Origin: an uncultured bacterium
GTDB lineage: Bacteria > Verrucomicrobiota > Lentisphaeria > Victivallales > UBA1829
Direction of reading: 5' to 3'
Assembly (NCBI GenBank): GCA_902802585.1
Contig: CADCMR010000006.1
Location: 1-64,000, forward strand
Length of the DNA: 64,000 nt
Position numbers and translations under genes: made by a program. This document shows, one piece after another, positions 137 to 45,464 of this stretch. Each line of letters starts with the position of its first letter. Positions within the stretch are counted from its first letter, which is position 1. A model generated the notes under the pieces. That model did not search any database. It saw only the letters and a list, made by a program, of their open reading frames with translations, and was not told the DNA's origin.

Positions 137-235
137 ATCGAGTAGGAGGTTGCCCCTTAGTGGGGCAACCGACCTCTCACACCACCGTACGTGCCGTTCG
201 GCATACGGCGGTTCAACAAGTTGAGTGAAGCGCGT
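137..235 (-). mobile_element. Group II intron 3' end remnant (domains V and VI)
   Basis: Read on the minus strand, CCGCCGTATGCC-GAAC-GGCACGTACGGTGG forms a domain V hairpin with the CGC triad and a GNAA-like tip. It is followed by GTGTGAGAGG and a domain VI hairpin (GGTTGCCCC / GGGGCAACC, loop ACTAA). The RNA would end at CCTCCTACTCGAT (minus end at 137), which matches the usual end of bacterial group II introns. The segment upstream of domain V translates to a peptide like LLNRRMPNGTYGGVRG, familiar from sequence around the end of intron reverse-transcriptase genes. Everything 5' of about position 235 (reverse transcriptase, domains I-IV) is missing, so the element is dead. The exact 5' breakpoint lies somewhere in 215-247. 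Confidence 0.8.
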
Positions 236-538: not shown

Positions 539-823
539 TCACTTCATTTTCAGCAGGGCGTCTCTGCCGGACATTCCGGGAATGACGCCGAGTTTCGCGG
601 CGGCCGACGACACGCTTTTCACCTGGGCGTTCAGCATATCGTCGAAATTTTTCACGCAGCTGACGATGGCAACCGCATCGCCGACTTTTTCAGCGGTTTC
701 AAGCGAGATGTAGCCGCATCCCAGGAATCCGTTCTTCGCCTTGATGACAAGAATGAACGTATTTCCGGACGGGATCGCGTACCCATCGAACTGGTTTCCT
801 TCAAGAATGACTGTATCGTTCAT
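539..823 (-). CDS. DUF1805 (YunC-like) domain protein
   Basis: A compact 94-residue protein made of a single DUF1805 domain. It shows the pattern GYAIPSGNTFILVIKAKNG, then FLGCGYISLETAEKVGDAVAIV, and ends shortly after a VKSVSSAAAKLGV helix. The start at 823 is chosen because GGAAAGG lies just upstream; an upstream extension to 913 lacks such a site and is low in coding character. DUF1805 proteins are small alpha/beta proteins of unknown function found in Bacillus and archaea. The gene converges on the broken Rrf2 regulator, with 30 bases between the two stops. Cellular role is not known. Confidence 0.8.
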   Translation of the reverse strand: MNDTVILEGNQFDGYAIPSGNTFILVIKAKNGFLGCGYISLETAEKVGDAVAIVSCVKNFDDMLNAQVKSVSSAAAKLGVIPGMSGRDALLKMK

Positions 824-1067
824 AGCCTTTCCTTCCCCGGTTATATTGGTAATGATGCCCGGAAAATATACTTGAACTTCCGAGGAATTACAAGCCGAAT
901 TCAGAAAAAACAACCGGAAGAGTCAACATTCTGGCAATTGCAAAAGGAAACGCACGGCAAAAAAACGAAGAAAGCAGAGCTCGTGTGTCAAATGTCAAGC
1001 CATGGAAAGCCGCCGGAATCGCGATGGAAACCGGCGGCGAAAGGATGTCGAAAAAAGGAGCTGGAAA

Positions 1068-43566: not shown

Positions 43567-44370
43567 TTATTTGAGTTTGAGATTGGAGAACGCGGCTCCG
43601 AGGCTGCCGAAGGGTTCGTTGCTCGACGGAAGCGGATAGGCGGAAAGGATCTTGTTCTGCGCCTCGAAAACCGGGGCGAGCCCGACCTGCGCCAGCTCAA
43701 GGATTTTGTCGAGCTGTTCACGGTCGAACGGGACCTCCTCGGCGGTGCCCTGAAGCTCGATGAACTTGCCGGACTCGGTCATGACGACGTTGAAATCGAC
43801 GTCCGCGCCGGAATCCTCCTCGTAGCAGAGGTCGAGCAGCGGCACGCCGCCACGGATGCCGACACTGATCGCGCCGACGTTCTCGCGCATGGGGAACCGC
43901 TGGATCTTTTTCCCGGCGAGGAGCTTGCGGAACGCGATCTGGAGCACGACGCTGGCGCCGCAGATGGAGGCGCAGCGGGTGCCGCCGTCCGCGTCGATCA
44001 CGTCGCAGTCGATGTACAGCGTGTTCTGACCGAGCGCCTGCAGGTCGATGACGGAACGGAAGGAACGCCCGATGAGGCGCTGAATCTCCATGGTACGTCC
44101 GGACTGCTTGCCGCGGGAGGCTTCGCGCGCGACGCGCGTATTGCCCGCGCCGGGGATCATGCCGTATTCGCTGGTGACCCAGCCGCCGGAAACGCCCTGC
44201 TGGCGCATCCAACCGGGGACGCCCTGTTCGAACGAGGCGGAGCAGATAACCTTGGTACCGCCGACTTCGATGAGCGCGGAGGCGATCGGGTGGGCGAGGT
44301 AGTCCGGGGTGATGCGGAATTTGCGCGGCTGGGACGGCGCGCGACCGTCGATGCGTCTGGTGTTGTTCAT
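43567..44370 (-). CDS. rph: Ribonuclease PH
   Basis: 267 residues, about 30 longer than the usual 238 because of a Ser/Pro-rich tail (KILSAYPLPSSNEPFGSLG). It trims tRNA 3' ends with phosphate. The core begins with RAPSQPRKFRITPDYLAHP, and has GWVTSEYGMIPGAGNTR, QSGRTMEIQRLIGRSFR, IDCDVIDADGGTRCASI and DFNVVMTESGKFIELQGTAE. It begins 22 bases after the 3' end of the SRP RNA gene on the same strand. Confidence 0.95.
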   Translation of the reverse strand: MNNTRRIDGRAPSQPRKFRITPDYLAHPIASALIEVGGTKVICSASFEQGVPGWMRQQGVSGGWVTSEYGMIPGAGNTRVAREASRGKQSGRTMEIQRLIGRSFRSVIDLQALGQNTLYIDCDVIDADGGTRCASICGASVVLQIAFRKLLAGKKIQRFPMRENVGAISVGIRGGVPLLDLCYEEDSGADVDFNVVMTESGKFIELQGTAEEVPFDREQLDKILELAQVGLAPVFEAQNKILSAYPLPSSNEPFGSLGAAFSNLKLK

Positions 44371-44392
44371 GCGGAATCCATTGGTTCAAAAG

Positions 44393-44508
44393 AAAAGCCG
44401 CCGCCCGACAGATGACCTACGCGCAAGGTCTTAACGCTTAGAGCTGCTTTGTTCCCAACCTGACTCGGTTCACGCAATTCCATCGCACAGGGTCCGGCGG
44501 ACGACGGC
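44393..44508 (-). ncRNA. ffs: Signal recognition particle RNA (small bacterial type, 4.5S)
   Basis: On the minus strand GCCGTCGTCCG at the 5' end pairs with CGGGCGGCGGC at the 3' end (U-G wobbles included), leaving TTTTC as a terminator tail. The conserved apical part reads GTGAACCGAGTCAGG-TTG-GGAA-CAA-AGCAGC followed by TCTAAGCG. The GGAA tetraloop and the CAGG/AGCAG symmetric loop that bind Ffh are intact. The usual closing stem UCC/GGA is replaced by UUG/CAA, a compensated change. About 112-116 nucleotides, the normal size. It lies between accD and rph and may be cut out of their transcript; a CATAAT box ends just before it but no good -35 is seen. Confidence 0.88.
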
Positions 44509-44513
44509 AAATA

Positions 44514-45464
44514 TTATGCTGGTTTCTGTTTGCGGGAAGATTTTCCCGCCTTATTTACTTTACACCGTTTTGTGAAATATTCAAGGCAAAGTGTGAGTTC
44601 CGCCCGTAAATTTTTCCGTTCGATGATCCGGTCGACGAAGCCCTTCTGGAGCAGGAACTCCGAAGTCTGGAATCCCTCCGGAAGCTGCGCCTGCGTGGTC
44701 GCCTCGATCACGCGGCGTCCGGCGAAGCCGACCATCGCGCCCGGTTCGGCGAGGATCAGGTCGCCGAGCGAGGCGAAACTGGCGGTGACGCCGGCGGTGG
44801 TGGGATGGGTCAGGATCACGATGTACGGCAGACCGGCCTCCTTGTGGCGGTACAGAGCGCCGCTGGTCTTCGCCATCTGCATGAGGCTGATGAGCCCCTC
44901 GTACATGCGCGCGCCGCCGCTGGCGGTGACGATCACGAGCGGGAGGCGCTTCGCGGTGGCGGTCTCGATGGCACGCGTAATCTTCTCGCCGACGACTGCG
45001 CCCATGCTGGCTCCGAGGAAGCGGAAGTCCATGACGGCGAGGACGTACGGGATGAAGTTGATGGCGGTAACGCCGGAGATCACGGCATCGCGGAGACCGG
45101 TCTTCTCGTGGTTGGCGCGGAGCTTTTCGACGTAGGGGGACACACCCTCGAACTTGAGCGTATCGACGGATTCGAGCTTCGGGTCGAGCTCCTGGAAACT
45201 GCCGAGGTCGGTCAGCAGGTCGATGCGCTCCAGCGCGGTCAGCGGGTAATGGTAGCCGCACTTCGGGCAGACCTGCAGGTTTTCCTCCTTGCGGCTGGAG
45301 AAGATCAGTTCATTGCAGTTTTTGCATTTTTCCCAAAGCCCCTGCGGGATGTCCTTCCGTTTCGCGACCTCGGCCTGTTTCTGGATGCCGTGATGCGCGA
45401 TGACGCCGACCGGAACCGCGGAGGTCGTCGGCAGAGGTTTGACTTTTTTGGTAAAAGCAGCCAT
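44514..45464 (-). CDS. accD: Acetyl-CoA carboxylase carboxyltransferase subunit beta
   Basis: 316 residues. The N-terminal zinc ribbon is complete: WEKCKNCNELIFSS and LQVCPKCGYHYP. The crotonase-fold domain has ASGGARMYEGLISLMQMAKT and VILTHPTTAGVTASFASLGD, with EPGAMVGFAGRRVIEATT and KGFVDRIIER. It forms malonyl-CoA with AccA. The protein ends in a basic tail (KSSRKQKPA). AAGGTG lies upstream of the ATG. accA, accB and accC are not in the window. Confidence 0.96.
   Translation of the reverse strand: MAAFTKKVKPLPTTSAVPVGVIAHHGIQKQAEVAKRKDIPQGLWEKCKNCNELIFSSRKEENLQVCPKCGYHYPLTALERIDLLTDLGSFQELDPKLESVDTLKFEGVSPYVEKLRANHEKTGLRDAVISGVTAINFIPYVLAVMDFRFLGASMGAVVGEKITRAIETATAKRLPLVIVTASGGARMYEGLISLMQMAKTSGALYRHKEAGLPYIVILTHPTTAGVTASFASLGDLILAEPGAMVGFAGRRVIEATTQAQLPEGFQTSEFLLQKGFVDRIIERKNLRAELTLCLEYFTKRCKVNKAGKSSRKQKPA

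Follow-up and report, generated by a model that had tools for sequence, protein, structure and literature searches.

The stretch of DNA analysed here (the window, 64,000 nucleotides) comes from an uncultured bacterium of the class Lentisphaeria and forms positions 1 to 64,000 of contig CADCMR010000006.1. It carries a gene for an SRP RNA of the 4.5S type between accD and rph, all on the minus strand. Both neighbours were named by NCBIfam equivalog models, which bears out the placement given in the original prediction. The features discussed below are listed from upstream to downstream.

44514..45464, minus strand: accD, acetyl-CoA carboxylase carboxyltransferase subunit beta; upstream neighbour (TIGR00515, 373 bits)
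44579..44584, minus strand: predicted -35 element TTGAAT, within accD codons (recurrence at relatives' loci; codon conservation)
44557..44562, minus strand: predicted -10 element TAAAGT, within accD codons (recurrence at relatives' loci)
44397..44508, minus strand: SRP RNA gene (ffs, 4.5S-type), about 112 nt (RF00169 match, fold, covariation in 31 relatives)
44459..44464, minus strand: 5' strand of the symmetric internal loop region, GUCAGG
44449..44458, minus strand: apical hairpin UUG-GGAA-CAA
44444..44448, minus strand: 3' strand of the symmetric internal loop region, AGCAG
44388..44396, minus strand: T tract after the basal stem, resembling an intrinsic terminator, TTTTCTTTT (sequence; terminator-scan site)
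43567..44370, minus strand: rph, ribonuclease PH; downstream neighbour (TIGR01966, 308 bits)

Identity and fold of the SRP RNA

A covariance-model search of the window with Rfam models matched RF00169 (Bacteria_small_SRP; curated cut-off 40 bits) to positions 44403-44499 of the minus strand at 56.7 bits (E 8.9e-10), the model being covered end to end (positions 1-97 of 97), in full agreement with the identity first assigned to this locus; the match listed there is to the small-type model and not to the large type. Folded as a single sequence, the RNA forms one hairpin of 112 nt (-47.9 kcal/mol), in which the basal stem pairs 44508 with 44397 and runs into UUUUCUUUU. The energy is unremarkable, lying only 1.5 sd below shuffles (z -1.5), and the structure therefore rests on covariation and on the Rfam match. 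Among 31 aligned relatives, changes on both sides were seen in 25 of the 32 pairs, and standard pairs filled 94.5% of the cells, compared with 84.6% for shuffled alignments and 35-45% where the partners were slid; relatedness of the sequences inflates the shuffle statistics. The molecule forms one extended hairpin, lacks an Alu-type domain and has helices that covary; its internal loop strands are GUCAG and AGCAG, and its tetraloop, GGAA, is of the GNRA form. It shares with the E. coli 4.5S RNA (ffs, RF00169) the full-length model match, the one long hairpin of about 112 nt, the internal loops and the GGAA tetraloop; it differs in its apical pairs, which are UUG/CAA here and UCC/GGA in E. coli, and in a predicted promoter that would lie within the upstream accD gene.

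The GUCAG and AGCAG strands are invariant in the 31-row alignment, which leaves out two relatives whose AGCAG strand differs. Several departures from the common form were noted among the relatives. At one locus (L049, genome G021) GGCAG replaces AGCAG beside GTCAGA, so that the Ffh-binding internal-loop region differs; this change is more unusual than the UUG/CAA tip. Another locus (L057, genome G044) reads AGCATC instead of AGCAGC in the same strand and scores 39.9 bits, just below the cut-off. At 26 of 55 SRP RNA loci across the order, A and not G follows GTCAG, so that two A residues face each other next to the apical stem. Within the host's own genus, the SRP RNA of locus L051 (genome G006) scores 39.5 bits, its basal stem having diverged strongly; the tip and the promoter-like element are unchanged.

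Elsewhere in the window, the 3' domains of a group II intron (RF00029, 47.6 bits) were matched at 137-213, minus strand, near the beginning of the window, where the contig begins as well. One open reading frame of at least 120 aa is listed between this match and position 1000 (539-913, minus strand); by eye it is unlike a reverse transcriptase, and the intron may therefore be a fragment.

Gene neighbourhood and a promoter-like element within accD

The order comF-accD-SRP-rph is kept through most of the host's order, and the adjacency of accD and the SRP RNA is found also in several further families of the class; at 30 loci examined from other classes, no matches to accD, rph, purM or comF were obtained. 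The genes are all co-directional, and the accD stop lies 5 nt ahead of the RNA. This arrangement would fit an SRP RNA that has no promoter of its own and is cut from a comF-accD-rph operon transcript, as had been suggested for this locus, with RNase PH perhaps trimming the 3' end. We consider such processing unlikely. A conserved element upstream of the RNA, the constancy of the codons that contain it, and a T-rich octamer downstream make an own promoter and terminator the likelier arrangement.

The element emerged from comparing relatives; TTGAAT-N16-TAAAGT was not listed by a generic promoter scan. It occupies the last accD codons, upstream of the SRP RNA, in the host's genus, and its counterpart in genome G016 is TTGACT-N16-TATAGT. 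Loci of family f6 that have no accD match beside the RNA carry TTGACA-N16-TATTGT, a recurrence that speaks against operon processing. The general pattern TTGA-N16-TA...T precedes the SRP RNA at 36 of 54 loci, compared with 9 of 1078 control windows, and is missing in its exact form in genera g3, g4 and g8 and in families f3 and f8. Measured against the E. coli consensus, the element of this genome scores 8/12. Constancy at the codon level also argues against operon processing: across ten loci at greater distance, conserved residues of the promoter stretch were encoded by the same codons as in the window in 55 of 62 cases, compared with fractions of 0.36-0.54 in the accD body (the comparison was anchored on the first codons and gives 28/35 without CTT, GAA and TAT; the loci are related and share one reference, and the counts are not independent). 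At the other end of the gene, a T-rich octamer follows the SRP RNA at 46 of 54 loci, compared with 110 of 1536 control windows.

The SRP RNA thus probably has its own promoter. Its expression would be driven by a sigma70-type promoter lying within the final codons of accD, and the transcript would end at the RNA's own basal stem and T tract; about 40 nt of 5' leader would then need trimming, and some read-through from the operon may occur. With the promoter placed inside the last accD codons, the same stretch of DNA would carry both protein-coding and promoter information. More tentatively, this double use may hold through most of the order, and the comF-accD-SRP-rph arrangement may couple lipid synthesis, membrane targeting and RNA trimming, although we consider this extended reading doubtful.

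Variation of the apical tip

The tip region reads GUCAGG-UUG-GGAA-CAA-AGCAG at 44464-44444 of the minus strand, letter for letter as originally described and with pairing kept; the three apical pairs are standard here and in all 31 aligned relatives (100% of cells), and each of the three shows both-side changes among them. It had been proposed that three base pairs were changed at this tip. This is correct when the UCC/GGA form is taken as the norm, but not when the relatives are: the usual tip of the host's order is UGG-GGAA-CCA, from which UUG/CAA is one pair away. At the 55 loci of the order with a readable tip, the states were UGG/CCA (27), UUG/CAA (17), CGG/CCG (7), UGA/UCA (3) and UCG/CGA (1), with UUG/CAA present throughout the host's genus and in some neighbours. 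Other Lentisphaeria SRP RNAs resemble this one in neighbourhood (in most of the order), in the GGAA loop, and in a closing pair that is mostly G-C and not C-G; they differ in that their tips are mostly UGG/CCA or CGG/CCG, with few UGA/UCA or UCG/CGA, and families f14 and f18 have C-G closing. Beyond the class but within the phylum, C-G closing prevails among matches to a pattern search that demanded GTCAGG and GGAA and so missed other tip forms.

In a tree of Ffh proteins, the UUG/CAA genomes of the host's family form one group (branch support 96); the same tip is found separately in family f10, in two genomes, the other tips sampled from that family being UGG/CCA. UUG/CAA is a single compensated change on one branch of the host's family, with a second origin elsewhere in the class (f10). 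On the branch within the host's family the middle apical pair went from G-C to U-A, turning UGG/CCA into UUG/CAA.

The substitution had also been thought rare, a view that does not survive a wider search. In a collection with one genome per species, a 22-base core with the exact tip, GTCAGRTTGGGAACAAAGCAGC, was found in at least 119 stretches, so that the tip is present letter for letter in about 100 or more other bacterial species, a figure that sets a lower bound on its frequency across bacteria and is not a rate. By title, 92 of the stretches listed are Lachnospiraceae, and the remaining listed matches are Eubacteriaceae, Clostridiaceae, Erysipelotrichaceae, Leptotrichiaceae (Oceanivirga), Synergistaceae, Gastranaerophilales and Lentisphaeria, together with one titled as an archaeon; Fusobacteriota, Synergistota and Melainabacteria are among the groups with the exact core besides Lachnospiraceae. 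All 18 of the core loci tested with Rfam proved to be SRP RNAs (11 large, 7 small). Searches of the literature brought up no survey of how the apical stem varies among bacterial SRP RNAs. The Lachnospiraceae RNAs have the same letters as the present one from GUCAG through AGCAGC, including UUG-GGAA-CAA, with G or A as the sixth base; in contrast to it, those tested are mostly of the large type (RF01854). Since theirs is an unrelated lineage, the tip is either of independent origin or an old state that recurs.

Protein partners and copy number

The cognate Ffh is encoded in the same genome (TIGR00959, 550 bits; G000:C23:43466-44731), and its RNA-binding segment, SRRRRIAKGSG, is canonical, aligning with SRKRRIAAGSG of the solved Ffh chain 2xxa_A. 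This Ffh (L238) has a long C-terminal tail, rich in glycine and methionine (GGMGGMGSFGGMGGFGG...) and basic at its end. The original prediction placed the changed pairs next to the Ffh site and looked to the Ffh M domain for matching changes. The location holds loosely: the M domain binds the internal loops, which are kept here, and the apical stem is capped by the tetraloop that contacts the NG domain of the receptor SR/FtsY (PMC4737761, PMC5115805). Such changes were not seen, since no residue of the RNA-binding segment systematically separates UUG from UGG genomes among the aligned relatives (a comparison that misses nine Ffh genes because of a simple ORF filter), and this absence fits the published division between M domain at the internal loops and tetraloop at the receptor. 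No obvious UUG-specific change was seen in the one C-terminal stretch of FtsY that was inspected.

A functional specialisation of the tip, matched by changes in Ffh or FtsY, has some physical grounds, in that the tetraloop adjoining this stem makes contact with the NG domain of the receptor (PMC4737761), and changes in the tetraloop can have an effect on the internal loop nearby (PMC5115805). We nevertheless regard it as highly improbable, because the GGAA loop is unchanged, the segments compared show no systematic difference in Ffh and no obvious UUG-specific one in FtsY, and unrelated phyla have the identical tip in SRP RNAs of both the large and the small type. We favor instead an ordinary tip, in which the three-pair apical stem would serve as a spacer, its pairing constrained and its letters changeable in a compensated way; Ffh would be held at the conserved internal loops of the hairpin, and the GGAA tetraloop would be presented to the receptor in co-translational targeting.

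A second, canonical SRP RNA gene was sought throughout the genome (92.85% complete), and none was found above the cut-off: the gene at 44397-44508 is the sole such match, the next-best scoring 14.4 bits (E 6.8). The missing part of the assembly could in principle hold a working SRP RNA, but the chance that the present locus is a decayed second copy is negligible, since its loops and pairs are conserved and a near-identical RNA lies at the same place, one copy each, in nearly all other members of the genus with a match. The locus is almost certainly the genome's ordinary bacterial small SRP RNA, and its tip is ordinary too.

In the apical stem of the SRP RNA the base letters are free to vary while pairing is maintained, and a compensated tip should therefore not be flagged as unusual. 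The kept neighbourhood, together with the promoter-like element in accD, provides a small testable point on how the SRP RNA may be transcribed in Lentisphaeria.
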